Assembly: GCF_029889745.1 (NCBI RefSeq)
Contig: NZ_CP123639.1
Span: 720,501-784,500 of the forward strand
Source: Ligilactobacillus faecis
GTDB lineage: Bacteria > Bacillota > Bacilli > Lactobacillales > Lactobacillaceae
Reading direction: 5' to 3'
DNA: 64,000 bases
The notes under the pieces are model-generated. The model had not been told where the DNA came from and searched no databases. It saw nothing but the letters and a program-made list of their open reading frames with translations. A program made the translations under genes and the position numbers. Numbering within the stretch: the first letter of the stretch is position 1; each line of letters begins with the position of its first letter. Of the stretch, positions 33,034-40,989 are shown piece after piece.

Positions 33034-33867
33034 TTGAAGCAAGGCAAAAAATCGGCCGTTATTCTTAGCGTTTTAGCGGTGATGCTCGTCTTAAGTGGCT
33101 GTAGCACTGATCCAGTCACGGCGCAAAGTACTGGGATCTGGGATCACTATATCGTTTGGAACTTTATTCGAGCGATCGAAGCTTTAAGCAATATTTTTGG
33201 GCATAATTACGGTTGGGGGATCGTCGTCTTTACGATCATCGTGCGGATCGTGATCTTGCCTTTGATGATCTACCAGATGAGAAGTATGCGCAAGACTTCT
33301 GAGTTACAGCCGAAGTTAAAAGAGCTCCAAGCTAAATACCCTGGCCGTGACGTTGAGTCGATGCAAAAGATGCGGGCTGAACAGCAGAAGTTGTACGCTG
33401 AAGCTGGTGTCAATCCAGTTGCAGGTTGTTTACCACTCCTAGTGCAAATGCCGATCTTGATCGCGTTGTATCAAGCGATCTATCGTTCAGAGACCCTGAA
33501 AACGGGGCATTTCTTATGGATGCAACTAGGTGGGAAAGATCCGTACTACATCTTGCCAGTCTTAGCAGCCTTATTCACGTTTGCAACTTCATGGTTGAGC
33601 GTCAAATCTCAACCAGAACAAAATGCGATGACGACGATGATGACTTATGGGATGCCACTTATCATCTTCTTTACCGCTTTGAATGTGCCGGCTGCGTTAT
33701 CACTTTACTGGGTGATCACAAACGCCTTTTCTGTTGTCCAAACTCTCGTGATCAATAATCCGTTTAAGATACAACGAGAACGCGAAGAAAAGAAGCGCGC
33801 TGAAAAAGCACGCCAGCGTAAGATCGAAAAATCAAAACGCAAGGCTCTAAAGAGCAAGAAAAAATAG
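33034..33867 (+). CDS. yidC: Membrane protein insertase YidC (lipoprotein)
   Basis: Inserts membrane proteins alone or with SecYEG. It is 277 residues, with a lipoprotein signal peptide ending LVLSGC (lipidated Cys near residue 23), five membrane helices, the family core VRIVILPLMIYQMRSMRK with the conserved groove arginine region, and a basic C-terminal tail (KKRAEKARQRKIEKSKRK). The start is TTG at 33034, seven to nine bases after GTGAGG; a GTG at 33019 lies inside that site. In most lactobacilli jag/khpB, mnmE and mnmG follow; here an IS element follows. Confidence 0.94.
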   Translation: MKQGKKSAVILSVLAVMLVLSGCSTDPVTAQSTGIWDHYIVWNFIRAIEALSNIFGHNYGWGIVVFTIIVRIVILPLMIYQMRSMRKTSELQPKLKELQAKYPGRDVESMQKMRAEQQKLYAEAGVNPVAGCLPLLVQMPILIALYQAIYRSETLKTGHFLWMQLGGKDPYYILPVLAALFTFATSWLSVKSQPEQNAMTTMMTYGMPLIIFFTALNVPAALSLYWVITNAFSVVQTLVINNPFKIQREREEKKRAEKARQRKIEKSKRKALKSKKK

Positions 33868-35530
33868 TAGTATCATAACAAGAGGCTGTGACATAAGTAG
33901 TCTCTATAAGAGAAAAGTATCTCAGAAATCGAAAATTTGATTTCTGAGATACTTTTTCTTTACGTATTTTGTTTATCTTGGTCACTACTGTGACTAATTT
34001 GTTGATATTCATTGCCAAAACTACAATGCCCATTTCCTTTTCGACTCTTTCGCTCCCCCTAACTGAGAATCGGTTGAATCCCAAAGAAGCCTTCAATCTT
34101 CCAAAAACAGGTTCAACATCAATTTTGCGCCGTGCATAGATTGATCCAGTATTAGAAGATGAAAGTAAAGCTCGTTGTTGTGCTTTAAAATATTCCCAGG
34201 CATTATTGACCATGATCTTCCTTACGTGTCCACTTTTAGTTAAGGCTCGGGGATCTATCAAATGATCATCATCAAATTTTTCAGCAGTATATACTTTAAA
34301 ATCTCTAGTAAATCCATACTTATCAGTTCTTTTAGAATAGTTTGAAAAATTGAATCTAACACCGTTAAGGTCTAAATAATAGTCATCTTTTTCATTATAA
34401 GACCAATTCATGATTTTATGATCATCAGTTTTCCATTTGCGACTATTCTCTTTGAGCATTGTCCCATAAGGGATCAAAACGGTGCGATCACCGTAATTAT
34501 CGTCACAAAAACGATAATTACTCTCAGAACCATACCCAGCATCAGCAACGATAGTTGAACCAAGTACGCCATTGTCATTCAAATGGTCAATAAAAGTAGG
34601 AAGCGTTCTTGTATCAGTTGGATTAGCAAATAACTTATACCCGGTAATAAACTGGTTACTAGTAGCAATTTGAAGATTATAAGCAGGTTTTAGTTGTCCG
34701 TTTAACATTGGATCTTCTTTTACACGCATAAAAGTAGCATCATGGTCAGTTTTAGAGTAACTATTTCGTTCTCTAAGGATGTCTTTTTGTTTTTGGTGAT
34801 TTTGCATTTTTTCTTTACGCGTTAATAGTTTTTTGTAGGTTGCCTTTAATTTTCGACGTTCTTGTTTCGCAGGGTTCGGCGATACTTGTCTAGTTTCTTC
34901 GACTTTTTGATCTAAAGCAACTAGATAATCTTCAAACTTGGCAATTATTACATCTAATGCTTCCAAAGTCAGGTCAGATCCTTTGGGGATCTTTCCGATA
35001 ACTTTAGCTTCGTGGAGCTCGCCTAAAAGTTCAACAACTTTTTGACGATTGAGCTCATCAAAACGAACGACATTTTTCTTCCAGACAAAAGAATACTTAT
35101 TAGCATCCGCAAGGATCTTCGTACCGTCAATGAAAGAAATGTCATCAATCAGATTATGTTTTTTTAGAAAAGCTGTCAATTTAGTTAAACTCTCTTGTGT
35201 TAAGGTAGCTAACTCATCAGAGATCCGAAAACGACAAATAGTTCGATAAGAAGGGACTTGATCAGCGATCAACCAACCAGCAGGCTTATTTTCGCGAGCA
35301 AATCTCTCAATTTTTCGACTACTAAAGATACCATAGCTATAAGCAAGTAAAGTGAGCTTTAGCATAGCAGCTAGATCATATTCACGAGGGCGTCCAAATT
35401 GATAGTTATACTTGAGTTCTAAACTTTCAACAAGTTCATTGATGTAGAGAGCTGGATGATTTTTTTCAGGAATATATTCTAAAGAGATGTTCAAAATAGT
35501 CTGATTAATGTTATAATGACTGTGTATCAT
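33764..35530 (-). CDS. IS1182-family transposase, reads through its own IS end
   Basis: DDE transposase of 588 codons as written. It has N-terminal FGRPREYDLAAMLKLTLLAY, first catalytic block DISFIDGTKILADANKYSFVWK, central DATFMRVKEDPMLNGQLK, second block [15 protein letters not shown] and the C-terminal glutamate region IDVEPVFGRLKASLGFNRF. The ATG at 35530 follows GAAAGGA. The frame has no stop before the element's end: the codons GCC TCT TGT TAT run across the terminal repeat, and about 38 further codons are read antisense into yidC. The functional protein probably ends near the IS boundary, so the extra tail is a product of this insertion site. Confidence 0.92.
   Translation of the reverse strand: MIHSHYNINQTILNISLEYIPEKNHPALYINELVESLELKYNYQFGRPREYDLAAMLKLTLLAYSYGIFSSRKIERFARENKPAGWLIADQVPSYRTICRFRISDELATLTQESLTKLTAFLKKHNLIDDISFIDGTKILADANKYSFVWKKNVVRFDELNRQKVVELLGELHEAKVIGKIPKGSDLTLEALDVIIAKFEDYLVALDQKVEETRQVSPNPAKQERRKLKATYKKLLTRKEKMQNHQKQKDILRERNSYSKTDHDATFMRVKEDPMLNGQLKPAYNLQIATSNQFITGYKLFANPTDTRTLPTFIDHLNDNGVLGSTIVADAGYGSESNYRFCDDNYGDRTVLIPYGTMLKENSRKWKTDDHKIMNWSYNEKDDYYLDLNGVRFNFSNYSKRTDKYGFTRDFKVYTAEKFDDDHLIDPRALTKSGHVRKIMVNNAWEYFKAQQRALLSSSNTGSIYARRKIDVEPVFGRLKASLGFNRFSVRGSERVEKEMGIVVLAMNINKLVTVVTKINKIRKEKVSQKSNFRFLRYFSLIETTYVTASCYDTTIFSCSLEPCVLIFRSYAGVLFQRASFLRVLVVS
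33913..33957 (-). terminator. Transposase terminator inside the IS
   Basis: AAAGTATCTCAGAAATC and GATTTCTGAGATACTTT form a perfect 17-pair stem with a T-rich exit. It lies within the last codons of the transposase and also faces the end of yidC. Confidence 0.8.
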
Positions 35531-35682: not shown

Positions 35683-36654
35683 TTAAAGCAAAGTATAAGT
35701 TTCGTCGAGCAGATAGAGATCTGCTTGTTTTAGCCCTAAAACTTTGATCTGCCGGTCTTTAGTCACTAAAACGGCCCCAAAGATCTCTTCTGAGTCAAAA
35801 GAGTAATTTTCTAAGTCAGTTAAAGTGTCATTGAAAAAGAGTCGTGTCGTTTCGATCTCGCCGATGACAGAATGTTTAGTAAAGACAGTGACACTGACTA
35901 AGTTATTCTCATGTGGATAACCTGTTTTGGGGTCTAAGATATGGTGATAAGTTTTGCCACCACTTTGTAACTGCCGTTCGTAGATCCCACTTGTCACAGC
36001 CGAACACGGCCCGATCTTGACTGAGAGGATCGAGTGCCCACGCTTGGCAAAAGGATCTTGGATCCCGATCCGCCATTTCTGATCAGCGTGCTTTGGTGCT
36101 GGCCCTGTTAGCAAGAGGTTTCCACCTAGATCGATCATCGCTGAACCGATCCCTTTGGCTTTGAAGAGATCTTGGATCCGATCGGCGATATATCCTTTGG
36201 CGATCGCACCTAGATCAAGTTCCATACCTGCTTGTTTTAAGAAGATCGTCAGGTTTTCTTCGTCTAAAAGGACGTTTTTTGGATCACAAAGAGCTAAACG
36301 CGCTTTGATCTGCGCTGATTCTGGGACATGGGCATCTGAAAAACCGATCTTCCATAGTTTGACGAGCGGTCCGATCAAGGCATTGAACCCAAAATTTTGG
36401 CGACTCGTCAAAAGTGCTAATTTTGTAAGAGCAAAAGTCGCTTCACTGACAGCGACGGGATGTTTACCGGCTGCATGGTTGACCTCCATCAATTCTGAGA
36501 GCTCACGATTGACTGTCAAGCGATCTTCATACATTTGCACGAGTGCGTAGGCGTCATCTAGATCGGTCGCGGTTGCCGTCCCAAAGGCCGTTAGACGGAT
36601 ATTTGTCCCCAAGCCACGATATTGCTTGTGGATAGCAGTTTTCTTTGTAGTCAT
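35683..36654 (-). CDS. apbE: FAD:protein FMN transferase, cytoplasmic type
   Basis: Transfers FMN from FAD to Ser/Thr in D-x-x-[ST]-G-A-[ST] motifs of target proteins. The 323-residue chain has the ApbE core ELDLGAIAKGYIADRI, MIDLGGNLLLTG, AVTSGIYERQ and HHILDPKTGYP. In the metal-site segment the usual Asp is replaced by Glu (GEIETTRLF), a variant I believe occurs in lactobacilli. The N-terminus (MTTKKTAIHKQYRGLGT) has no signal peptide or lipobox, so it should act in the cytoplasm. It overlaps the upstream reductase in a TGATG junction, and that reductase carries two target motifs. Confidence 0.93.
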   Translation of the reverse strand: MTTKKTAIHKQYRGLGTNIRLTAFGTATATDLDDAYALVQMYEDRLTVNRELSELMEVNHAAGKHPVAVSEATFALTKLALLTSRQNFGFNALIGPLVKLWKIGFSDAHVPESAQIKARLALCDPKNVLLDEENLTIFLKQAGMELDLGAIAKGYIADRIQDLFKAKGIGSAMIDLGGNLLLTGPAPKHADQKWRIGIQDPFAKRGHSILSVKIGPCSAVTSGIYERQLQSGGKTYHHILDPKTGYPHENNLVSVTVFTKHSVIGEIETTRLFFNDTLTDLENYSFDSEEIFGAVLVTKDRQIKVLGLKQADLYLLDETYTLL

Positions 36655-37532
36655 CAGCCTTCAGACGCCCCCGTCGTCGTATCAGGTACTTTTTCAATGA
36701 TCTCTTCTGTTTGCGAAGCACTGGACAAAGCATCTTCGGTGTAGATCAAGGCCGGCTTTTTTGTTGTTTGCGTCTTGGAAGCACTCGTTACGGCTTGTGG
36801 TGTTTCGTTTAGTTCTTCGCGTAAGACAAAGCTGATCCCATTTGCTTCTTCAAAACTTTGTTCGTCACTTTCTGAAGCACCAGTAACATTATCTAAATTA
36901 TCTAAAACTTTTAAAACTGGATCTTCAGCGGGAAGCAACCTTTTAGTTGGCGTTGGTGTTTTGAGTGGCTTTTTGGCAGGGGTACTTTTCAGTGCTTCTA
37001 AAGCACTAGTGTAACGCATAAAGCCGTCAAAACACTGTTCTAACCAGGCAACAGTGCGTTGATCAAGAAGTTCACCATTTTCAGCAAAAGCGTTCTCGGC
37101 TTGACCAAGTAAAAACTGAAAACCAGGTAAGACAAATGAACCAAGTCCAGGCGAATCTAGGATCCGGCGTAAGCTCTCTTGGGCTTGGACCGTCCCGAGC
37201 TTGCCTAAAGAAGCTCCGACGATCATGACAGGACGCCTTGTCAAAGGATGGACTTTCCAGGAAAGCCATTCGATAACGGATTTTAGCGCAGCAGGAATAT
37301 CATGATCATATTCAGGTGTTCCAAAGATGACACCGTCTGCTGCTTCGATCTTTTCAGCTAACGCTAAGACACTAGGGGGAGTTTGGGCGTAGTCTTCGCA
37401 AAAAAGCGGGATATCTTTGATCTCAACGACTTCGATCGAGGCTTTCGTGGCAAAATGTGTGCTCATAAATTGGAGTAATTTACGGTTGTAAGATTGTGAT
37501 GCATTCGTTCCAACGATAGCGATGAATTTCAT
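36654..37532 (-). CDS. NADPH-dependent FMN reductase with a flavinylation-motif tail
   Basis: A flavodoxin-like reductase of 292 residues. The N-terminal 180 residues carry the family pattern: FIAIVGTNASQSYNRKLL, FGTPEYDHDIPAALKSVIEWLS and a conserved GxxGG-type region near SLGKLGTVQAQESL. The remaining 110 residues are low-complexity, rich in Lys/Pro/Thr/Glu and probably disordered. They contain DNVTGAS (residues 214-220; bases 36873-36893) and DTTTGAS (284-290; 36663-36683), both fitting the ApbE target consensus. The start is the ATG at 37532 (MKFIAIVG); the ribosome binding site is weak. It is coupled to apbE. A covalently FMN-loaded cytoplasmic electron carrier is the inference. Confidence 0.9.
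   Translation of the reverse strand: MKFIAIVGTNASQSYNRKLLQFMSTHFATKASIEVVEIKDIPLFCEDYAQTPPSVLALAEKIEAADGVIFGTPEYDHDIPAALKSVIEWLSWKVHPLTRRPVMIVGASLGKLGTVQAQESLRRILDSPGLGSFVLPGFQFLLGQAENAFAENGELLDQRTVAWLEQCFDGFMRYTSALEALKSTPAKKPLKTPTPTKRLLPAEDPVLKVLDNLDNVTGASESDEQSFEEANGISFVLREELNETPQAVTSASKTQTTKKPALIYTEDALSSASQTEEIIEKVPDTTTGASEG
36663..36683 (-). other. ApbE flavinylation motif 2
   Basis: Encodes Asp-Thr-Thr-Thr-Gly-Ala-Ser three residues from the C-terminus of the FMN reductase. The second Thr position before Gly-Ala is the residue ApbE normally modifies. Confidence 0.6.
36873..36893 (-). other. ApbE flavinylation motif 1
   Basis: Encodes Asp-Asn-Val-Thr-Gly-Ala-Ser in the reductase tail, 70 residues before motif 2. 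It resembles NqrC- and FMN_bind-type targets, but no FMN_bind domain surrounds it. Confidence 0.65.
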
Positions 37533-37622
37533 GGCGAAATGACGCACAGGCAATGTACGTCTGTGTTCAACACCTTTCTATGATTTTAAGCTAGGATACT
37601 TGTCCACTTATAAATGATATCT

Positions 37623-39042: not shown

Positions 39043-39092
39043 AAATACTTTGCCCCCAAAAATTCAAACTTTTGGGGGCAAAGTATTTTTTA
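39041..39092. terminator. Bidirectional terminator after the purine permease
   Basis: An about 20-pair stem, AAAATACTTTGCCCCCAAAA with its complement, closes around ATTCAAAC, with T-runs both ways. It lies between convergent genes. Confidence 0.93.
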
Positions 39093-39758
39093 ATATGTTT
39101 CGTTATCGAGGTAGTGGTTATAGTATTTGACTTTGACATCGTCTTTAGAAACGATCAATTTTGTTACTGCTCCGTTTTTAGGACCTAAGCGATCAGCACC
39201 GAGATCTTTTGCGAAGCGATCGACGATGCTTCTGATCGTAATACTGTGGCTGACAAGTAAGACATTTTCTCCCTCTGGGATATGGGTCCGCAAATAGTCA
39301 AAGCCAGCGTCTAAGCGCGCCCAGTATTTTGCATCATCTTCGGCATCTTTGAACGGATCAGTCTCATGCAGTAAGTCGCGGGTCATCCCCAGACCATATT
39401 TTTCTAAAATATCGTTATAAGTTCGGCAACCGTGCAAAGCTCCGACCATGAGCCAAGTTTGTGCAGCATCATTTCCTTCGAAATAGCCAAAGCTTTGTTC
39501 GCGGAAATACTTGAGTTCTTGGGGGACGAGTGTGCTTGAGTGTTTGTTTTGAGCTAAAATAAATTGACATGTGCGAGTTGCCCGCGTCGTGTCAGAATGA
39601 AAAGCATGATCGAACTTGATCTGGGCTAAATGTTTTCCAGCACTTTGAGCGTCATTGAGTCCTTTTGTTGTCAAAGGTGAATCACACCAACCTTGAAGAC
39701 GGTTATAACTATTGAGTAACGTTTGCCCGTGACGGACCATATAAAGTGTAAATGTCAT
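39090..39758 (-). CDS. Histidine phosphatase (phosphoglycerate mutase-like)
   Basis: A 222-residue member of the RHG superfamily: catalytic YMVRHGQTLLNSYNRLQGW at the N-terminus, the second arginine in HSDTTRATRTCQFIL, EQSFGYFEGN and the second histidine in VLLVSHSITIRSIV. Phosphohistidine chemistry is therefore intact. The substrate cannot be told; such proteins include broad-specificity phosphatases. The start is the ATG at 39758, six bases after GAGGT. It is monocistronic. Confidence 0.85.
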   Translation of the reverse strand: MTFTLYMVRHGQTLLNSYNRLQGWCDSPLTTKGLNDAQSAGKHLAQIKFDHAFHSDTTRATRTCQFILAQNKHSSTLVPQELKYFREQSFGYFEGNDAAQTWLMVGALHGCRTYNDILEKYGLGMTRDLLHETDPFKDAEDDAKYWARLDAGFDYLRTHIPEGENVLLVSHSITIRSIVDRFAKDLGADRLGPKNGAVTKLIVSKDDVKVKYYNHYLDNETY

Positions 39759-39849
39759 TTTCATACCTCATCTTGTCTTGCTAATTAATAAGATGATAAC
39801 ATGGAGCTCAGCGCTTTTGAAAGACTAGCTTTTCTCTAAACGTTATGGG

Positions 39850-39855
39850 TATAAT
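39850..39855 (+). promoter_or_regulatory. -10 element of the DHH phosphoesterase gene
   Basis: A perfect TATAAT at 39850-39855 would start RNA near 39862. That argues against translation from the ATG at 39871, which would have almost no leader. The -35 is weak. Confidence 0.55.
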
Positions 39856-39900
39856 TATTATTAGTAGAAAATGAGCGTAATTTTAGAAGGGATAAGAAAT

Positions 39901-40989
39901 TTGAAAAAGACACGACATATCAAGCTTTTTTCGCATAACGATCTCGATGGTTTTGGAGCCCCTGTTTTATTTGAAACGCTGGCACCATATCTTTTTAAAG
40001 ATGTTGAATTTGATCTGACGACTTGTTCAGCCGGAAACTTAGATCGTGAATTAGCCTATTGGTTCAAACAACCTGACTTAGGGCGTTTTACCGATGTCTA
40101 TATCATGGATATGACGCCAGATAGTGAATATTCATTTCAACAGTTGGAACAGCGCTTTGCAAACCACTGGTTGATCTTTGATCATCATGAAAGTGAAGAA
40201 AAGTTGCGCCAAGCTTATCAAACAAACTGTGTGATGCCCTTAGATGAGAGCAAAAATCCAAGTGCAGTCAGTTTAGTTTACGATTGGCTGACCAAACGGC
40301 CTGGGTTTGAGCAGATCCCCACGCAAAAACAAGCTCAAGTTGCAGAGTTAGTCGAGTTGATCCGTGCGTACGATACGTGGGATTGGCAAAAAGATCCTTT
40401 GATGACCCAAGAAGAACGCACAGCCGCTGACGAACTGAATCAGCTCTTTTGGTTTTACCCATTGAGCAAATCCAAGAGTTTTGTGGAAAGTGTCTTTGCA
40501 ACTGGCTGGGAAAACTATCGCGCTCAAAATGAACTTTTGATCAGCACGTTAAATGGACGACGTCAACGCTATTTAGATAAACATTTAAAAAATGTTGAGA
40601 CCTTTGAACTTGACGGACGCAGTTTTGGCGTCGTGTATGCTAGTGATTATAAATCTGAGATCGCCCACGCTTTATTAAAGCGTTTTGATGTCGACGCAGC
40701 TTTGGTGATCGATAGTCATAGTGTCTCGTTACGTTCAAACGGGCAACTAGATGTTGCTAAATTTGCTGCTGAATACTTTGGTGGCGGTGGGCATGCTGAT
40801 TCAGCCGGAGGACGTTTAGAGATCGAACCTTTAAAAGTTGCCGAGCAAGCTGTGATCGAAGTCATCAAACAACAAGCTAAATTAAATGCCGATGTCGAAA
40901 AACAAAATCAAAGCGAAAAAGCTTCGTTGGCTGATCAATTAGATCCCCAAATGGCAGCTAAACTTGCCGCTTTATTTGAAGATAAATGA
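39901..40989 (+). CDS. DHH-family phosphoesterase (NrnB-like oligoribonuclease)
   Basis: A 362-residue soluble phosphoesterase with DHH motifs HNDLDGFGAP, IMDMTPD and LIFDHHESEEK, and a DHHA1 domain with EYFGGGGHADSAGG. It lacks the membrane, PAS and GGDEF parts of GdpP. Bacillus NrnB relatives degrade short oligonucleotides and pAp. The TTG at 39901 is preferred because AGAAGGG lies about nine bases ahead. Monocistronic, closed by a shared terminator. Confidence 0.83.
   Translation: MKKTRHIKLFSHNDLDGFGAPVLFETLAPYLFKDVEFDLTTCSAGNLDRELAYWFKQPDLGRFTDVYIMDMTPDSEYSFQQLEQRFANHWLIFDHHESEEKLRQAYQTNCVMPLDESKNPSAVSLVYDWLTKRPGFEQIPTQKQAQVAELVELIRAYDTWDWQKDPLMTQEERTAADELNQLFWFYPLSKSKSFVESVFATGWENYRAQNELLISTLNGRRQRYLDKHLKNVETFELDGRSFGVVYASDYKSEIAHALLKRFDVDAALVIDSHSVSLRSNGQLDVAKFAAEYFGGGGHADSAGGRLEIEPLKVAEQAVIEVIKQQAKLNADVEKQNQSEKASLADQLDPQMAAKLAALFEDK

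Follow-up and report, generated by a model that had tools for sequence, protein, structure and literature searches.

A candidate multi-site flavinylated tail on an FMN_red-family reductase encoded together with a signal-less ApbE in Ligilactobacillus faecis

In Ligilactobacillus faecis, a reductase of the FMN_red family ends in a low-complexity tail with three candidate flavinylation sites, and its gene overlaps that of an ApbE-family FAD:protein FMN transferase which has no export signal. Flavinylation of this tail is, according to our analysis, well supported by analogy with homologues; we further infer that several of the sites are used, that the tail flavins act as a shuttle, and which acceptor they serve. 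In the reading that we prefer, and to which we give about an even chance of being correct, the protein would be a cytosolic oxidoreductase that uses NAD(P)H and whose tail FMNs relay electrons to an acceptor in solution, possibly a soluble fumarate reductase. The window, i.e. the whole stretch of 64,000 nucleotides that was analysed, comes from a genome of 2.38 Mb in two contigs and contains the following features of the gene pair:

36654..37532, minus strand: FMN_red-family reductase with a flavinylation-motif tail, 292 amino acids, starting from the ATG at 37532 (Pfam FMN_red, 8.8e-35)
37095..37532, minus strand: FMN_red (flavodoxin-like) domain of the reductase (Pfam match, residues 8-153)
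35683..36654, minus strand: apbE, FAD:protein FMN transferase family (Pfam ApbE, 5.6e-69)

Both genes lie where the first-pass annotation had placed them, and the overlap that it had read as TGATG (junction CTGATGACT) indeed has one base common to the reductase stop codon TGA and the apbE start codon ATG. As to the reductase start, the mechanical open reading frame opens at the TTG at 37553, and the ATG at 37532 is the one that agrees with the relatives in the alignment. The solved chains nearest to the FMN_red domain in the PDB search were 1rtt (4.8e-23, annotated as 'conserved hypothetical protein') and YieF of E. coli (3svl, 6e-20); TAL effectors, also returned for the reductase, were discarded as noise, as no stretch passes alone. 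In each of the five relatives checked the reductase-apbE pair has one or more neighbours in common with the window, namely a membrane insertase gene (60KD_IMP) in four and a permease gene in one, and two genes at 39090-40989 also flank the pair in three of the five. Separately, a DDE transposase ORF (window positions 33764-35530, 588 amino acids, Pfam DDE_Tnp_1 1.9e-22) separates apbE from the membrane insertase gene; since the insertase gene directly adjoins apbE in loci L036-L038, the ORF looks like an insertion within the lineage of the window.

The tail and its motifs are arranged as follows:

36657..36998, minus strand: low-complexity C-terminal tail of 114 residues, without a Pfam match
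36873..36893, minus strand: motif 1, DNVTGAS (DTTTGAS in all three aligned relatives)
36777..36797, minus strand: degenerate motif QAVTSAS, without the Asp (DEQTGAS and DTTTSAS in two relatives, the third having no motif there)
36714..36734, minus strand: motif DALSSAS, with Ser for Gly at position 5 (DALTSAS in all three aligned relatives)
36663..36683, minus strand: C-terminal motif DTTTGAS, two residues before the protein end (identical in all three aligned relatives)

The first-pass annotation had recognised DNVTGAS and DTTTGAS, which are present, but it had missed DALSSAS and the degenerate QAVTSAS. The pattern D-x-x-[ST]-[GS]-A-[ST] occurs three times in the tail (DNVTGAS, DALSSAS and DTTTGAS), so that the two covalent FMN groups proposed initially should be replaced by three candidate sites in the window protein and up to four in its relatives. 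A DNA-level motif scan of the whole window returned DNVTGAS and DTTTGAS, i.e. two matches against 0.13 expected, and none of 100 shuffles reached this number. When the residues of the tail were shuffled 20,000 times, a single motif of the looser form arose 88 times and never more than one, against the three observed. Neither FMN_bind (PF04205; no match at E 0.1) nor FAD_binding_2 was found in the reductase by the Pfam search. The AlphaFold2 model, built with three relatives, is weak (mean pLDDT 52); pLDDT falls below 40 from residue 191 onward, which says little on disorder of the tail, as the core is mostly of low confidence too.

The alignment comprised the window reductase and three relatives with 70-72% identity. 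A search of genome contigs for related loci confirmed only three relatives, and those of the reductase that have a species name are L. animalis, L. murinus and L. apodemi. In the four aligned sequences 18 of the 21 motif positions are invariant, versus 23 of the 91 other positions of the tail (Fisher p 4e-7); in the reductase core this is true of 145 of 180 columns. In all three relatives apbE adjoins the motif-tailed reductase. Within the genus, reductases with multi-site tails and no PAS domain occur in six of 26 genomes (G000, G003, G004, G017, G020 and G021, with 3, 4, 4, 3, 4 and 2 motifs, respectively), all with apbE directly downstream and with the last motif 2-3 residues before the C-terminus. 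The conservation of the motifs and of the apbE linkage, on which the first-pass annotation had made its interpretation depend, is found both in the aligned relatives and in these six genomes.

Outside the motifs, two short conserved blocks, SFEEANGI-FV and PALIYTE, were noticed at 36735-36857 of the window, the latter directly preceding DALSSAS. Together they account for 14 of the 23 invariant non-motif positions and might possibly be docking segments. The TFGL and PVIV[DN]LR blocks in loci L101 and L102 somewhat resemble them.

As for the transferase, its match to the solved chain 7esa (FAD:protein FMN transferase) has an E-value of 5.3e-61, and we take this chain to be FmnB. The N-terminus of the window ApbE, MTTKKTAIHKQYRGLGTN, contains no hydrophobic segment (the best 19-residue mean hydropathy in the first 45 residues is 0.65) and no lipobox, there being no cysteine in it. 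The protein is therefore signal-less, as had been noted from the start, and it lacks the signal peptide and lipobox of the usual exported form. In a review, signal-less ApbEs are on record (PMC12052999). The window ApbE was aligned with 40 ApbE frames from 39 chosen loci, a subset of the ApbEs fetched; in the first 50 residues of these frames, taken from the first possible start codon, the best 19-residue mean hydropathy ranges from 0.11 to 1.11, and none of them looks exported. The same review describes the roles of Ser257, Arg262, His273 and Asp301 of FmnB. Judging by alignment spacing, the window ApbE retains residues matching the first three, and the position of the triad Asp301 is occupied by Glu in 41 of 41 Lactobacillales ApbEs aligned, the window included. 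We counted this exchange at the FmnB-type triad against the proposed mechanism, along with the existence of relatives that have a single motif. It is probably a mark of the family and not a defect, since flavinylation of an FMN_red protein by the cognate Lactococcus apbE has been published (PMC11334425) and the ApbE of an L. lactis plasmid, the one read, also has Glu; this plasmid ApbE may differ from the Lactococcus sequence used in the cited work.

The window apbE is the sole ApbE match in the source genome, and no FMN_bind was found there at E 0.001. Genome-wide, the DNA-level motif pattern, which misses position-5 Ser coded TCN, gave 49 matches versus 37 for the reversed-pattern control, a small excess at most. 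In frame, within ORFs of at least 60 amino acids, the motifs were found in the window reductase (three), in a 404-residue paralogue with the architecture FMN_red-PAS_10-tail (two, DVATSAS and DANTGAS) and in two other proteins. The paralogue, whose gene adjoins one for a tail-less FMN_red protein and is far from apbE, is the only convincing motif-bearing protein found besides the window reductase. DAATSAS in a mevalonate kinase-like protein (an identity assigned by reading) was taken as chance, and DFETGAS was seen in one further protein.

In the genus, apbE is present in 24 of 26 genomes and FMN_bind in 12 of 26. All 24 apbE-positive genomes have a candidate substrate: FMN_bind in 12 of them and, in the other 12, a motif-tailed protein adjoining apbE, which is an FMN_red tail in five cases and a PAS-like protein in seven. 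The two genomes without apbE have neither an FMN_bind nor a reductase match (E 0.001).

The PAS-like protein just mentioned has 185-186 residues, ends in DAISGAS plus two residues, and adjoins a signal-less apbE in seven Ligilactobacillus genomes that have no FMN_bind:

L168:898-1455; L176:2323-2883; one each in L172, L173, L174, L177 and L178: PAS-like DAISGAS protein

Four of the seven were compared with Pfam PAS_10, and two of these pass the cut-off of 22.1 bits (24.9 and 23.4) while the other two score less (17.7 and 18.7). A close relative of the FMN_red protein is missing from six of the seven genomes (none, or one at E about 1e-8 to 1e-9), so that the window-type reductase is not a universal partner, which counts against the mechanism proposed below. 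Judging by sequence, this protein could represent a further possible class of ApbE substrates.

The first-pass annotation supposed that such a layout may be little described, which does not hold. In their survey of 47,894 genomes, Huang et al. (2024; PMC11334425) described, mainly in Firmicutes, FMN_red (PF03358) proteins with an unstructured extended C-terminus that carries one to two motifs and with apbE as a neighbour. Such proteins of L. lactis and L. taiwanensis were flavinylated when co-expressed with the cognate apbE, and SDS-PAGE with Ala controls showed that the predicted Ser/Thr was required. The window protein resembles this class in its FMN_red domain, motif-bearing extension and apbE neighbour, but has three motifs, with up to four in its relatives, in place of one to two. 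The L. lactis plasmid relative differs also in having a PAS_10 domain, which is absent from the window protein (the accessions of Huang et al. were compared by description). The initial observation is thus confirmed and its interpretation partly supported: a cytoplasmic reductase with a flavinylatable tail and a cytoplasmic ApbE agrees with the conserved motifs and linkage, the sole ApbE, the absence of FMN_bind and the flavinylated Lactococcus homologues, whereas the number of candidate sites and the presumed novelty had to be revised.

Several other systems invite comparison. A signal-less cytoplasmic ApbE flavinylates the soluble fumarate reductase of Klebsiella pneumoniae (PMC12052999), and the substrate predicted for the window ApbE is likewise a soluble redox enzyme. 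In the Klebsiella protein the covalent FMN lies within a folded domain, whereas the window system would carry it on a bare tail, any FAD protein being a separate chain. Multi-flavinylated proteins (PMC10339131, PMC11334425) also have several covalent FMNs per chain, but they are secreted or predicted extracytosolic FMN_bind chains, in contrast to the naked motifs of a cytosolic tail. The Flavin-tag (Tong et al., 2021, via PMC12052999 and PMC10722498) is likewise a seven-residue terminal motif flavinylated by ApbE; it is engineered, and the window tail would be its natural counterpart. Within the available portions of the literature on ApbE flavinylation (including PMC11334425, PMC12052999, PMC8238504, PMC10722498, PMC12504390, PMC7074142, PMC9670130 and PMC10339131), neither PAS-less tails with 3-4 sites nor a PAS-like tagged protein is described. 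Hence the basic layout of FMN_red, motif tail and apbE has been known since 2024, and it is the soluble, PAS-less form with three to four bare tags that may be new.

We propose that the two genes constitute a cytosolic redox module, in which ApbE, produced along with the reductase, would flavinylate the flexible tail at up to three motifs, the final Ser of each receiving the FMN. Electrons from NAD(P)H would enter at the FMN_red domain, where the tail FMNs, as flexible carriers, would collect them for delivery to an acceptor in solution. The likeliest candidate for this acceptor would be a stand-alone soluble fumarate reductase, which is an FAD protein of the flavocytochrome c type and has neither a heme nor an FMN domain. 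It is suggested by the fact that in other relatives FMN_red, FMN_bind and FAD_binding_2 are fused in one chain, in two domain orders, i.e. the reductase, covalent-FMN and FAD domains are united there; the window protein lacks the FAD_binding_2 part of these fused reductases. The source genome does encode such a stand-alone protein (464 residues, L103:1444-2838), whose score with PRK06481 (flavocytochrome c) is 619 bits, the cut-off being 542. Its matches include flavocytochrome c fumarate reductases, 1ksu among them with an E-value of 4.5e-101, and it has no heme or FMN domain. Against this proposal, its gene is not beside the reductase-apbE operon, being about 600 kb away. A strong stand-alone FAD_binding_2 gene (frames of 448-487 amino acids, E 2e-81 or better) is present in the same 24 of 26 genus genomes as apbE, and in the two apbE-less genomes FAD_binding_2 has no match at 1e-25. 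This co-occurrence, of which we found no description in the literature, is suggestive only, as it rests on two negative genomes that may reflect one event. Against the mechanism we also count the fact that DALSSAS lacks the Gly of the tested flavinylation consensus; Gly-to-Ala in the motif of another substrate roughly halved flavinylation (PMC12052999).

Alternatively, the tail flavin could fill the FMN site of the reductase itself, the extra motifs being spare or serving the other subunit of a dimer. This explanation, somewhat unlikely in our estimation, is the nearest to the view of Huang et al. (2024), who located the sites on the extension near the FMN site and proposed that flavinylation anchors the flavin in this existing site. 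Relatives with a single site would suit it. The FMN-binding loop bears on it as well. The Arg of the GSxR loop, seen in 13 of 19 outgroup FMN_red proteins, has a role in binding the FMN phosphate. With classes set by length and motif count only, its position is occupied by Ala in 14/14 motif-bearing proteins shorter than 350 amino acids and by Ala, Tyr or Ser in 51/51 motif-bearing ones of 350-519 amino acids, a replacement that could suit a tethered FMN. However, the Arg is also missing in nearly all tail-less relatives (it is present in 1/36 with apbE in the locus and in 0/66 without, 13 of the latter being unparsed) and in six of 19 outgroup FMN_red proteins with no apbE in the fetched stretch, so its absence may be a mark of descent only. 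Moreover, the argument of PMC11334425 that flavinylation prevents flavin loss concerns the outside of the cell and is not applicable to a cytosolic protein. Finally, three to four sites per chain exceed the one FMN site of an FMN_red domain, and if all of them are used, anchoring by itself is insufficient.

It might also be that the C-terminal motif alone is used, the internal ones being decaying copies, which we find quite unlikely. A census of FMN_red proteins bears on this point, and the distribution of motifs in it also favours the reading that we prefer; its loci were either fetched for likeness to the window reductase or chosen for their frame length and are not a random sample, duplicate sequences and frames touching locus ends were dropped, and single-query phmmer searches decided the classes. 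Motifs are carried by 0/100 tail-less, 14/16 PAS-less tailed and 50/50 PAS-containing proteins, the two tailed rows without a motif being L007 (a distant reductase, E 2.7e-5) and L192. In 47/50 PAS-type proteins the last motif stops 1-4 residues short of the C-terminus, and in the 14 motif-bearing PAS-less tails, eight of which have one motif only, it stops 2-8 residues short of it; terminal tags are known to work best in flavin-tagging, where the seven-residue motif suffices (PMC12052999). The second motif region, QAVTSAS in the window protein and lost in one relative, would fit such decay. On the other hand, 48 of the 50 PAS-type proteins have at least two motifs (1 in 2, 2 in 32, 3 in 14 and 4 in 2), and DNVTGAS/DTTTGAS and DAL[ST]SAS are kept in 4/4 aligned proteins, the surrounding tail mostly not. 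That the tail is unflavinylated, its motif-like repeats being plain low-complexity sequence and apbE serving something else, would fit the small genome-wide excess of motifs but seems very improbable given their clustering and conservation in the tail, a genome that offers its one ApbE no FMN_bind substrate, and the published flavinylation of homologues (PMC11334425).

Returning to the proposed electron shuttle, a wider version of it can be put forward tentatively, although we regard it as rather doubtful: a lactobacillar soluble 'flavin wire', in which up to four FMNs per tail would conduct electrons from NAD(P)H to the stand-alone soluble fumarate reductase with no membrane, heme or FMN_bind domain involved, the same tag being reused on PAS-like proteins. 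If this were true, ApbE tagging would be a modular means of equipping flexible intracellular tails with varying numbers of redox centres, a role beyond the extracytosolic one usually assigned to it, and the soluble fumarate reductase of lactobacilli would acquire a testable electron donor. The window and its relatives also supply natural multi-tag sequences for flavin-tagging.

As to the wider family, another PAS-less group has a single DATTGAS two residues before the protein end and a gene overlapping apbE. In a sample of 398 Bacilli the FMN_red domain was matched at 1e-30 in 42 genomes outside Lactobacillales, mostly by short frames. From these genomes 25 loci were taken, 20 of them hand-picked, and one of the latter (L268) shows apbE in the PAS version of the three-gene arrangement; the other five loci (L226-L230) have long FMN_red frames that run off the locus, each with one internal motif. 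In L077 (1351-2178) an FMN_red tail was observed in which DADTGAS is the one good motif, accompanied by about four degenerate D-x-x-A-S-A-[SF] repeats at a spacing of ~20 residues. This PAS-less protein nests among PAS-type proteins in the FMN_red domain tree, a weak point, since deep nodes are poorly supported and the label TAIL in that tree also covers several FAD-type genes truncated where their locus ends. A plasmid search with the reductase gave 479 records that match the domain, none covering 80% of the query. The three-gene form, i.e. apbE with a tail-less and a tagged FMN_red gene, is found on plasmids of Lactococcus, Lacticaseibacillus and Enterococcus faecium; on an E. faecium plasmid (L003:1286-6959) apbE, FMN_red, tagged FMN_red and a regulator gene lie between two annotated copies of IS1216.
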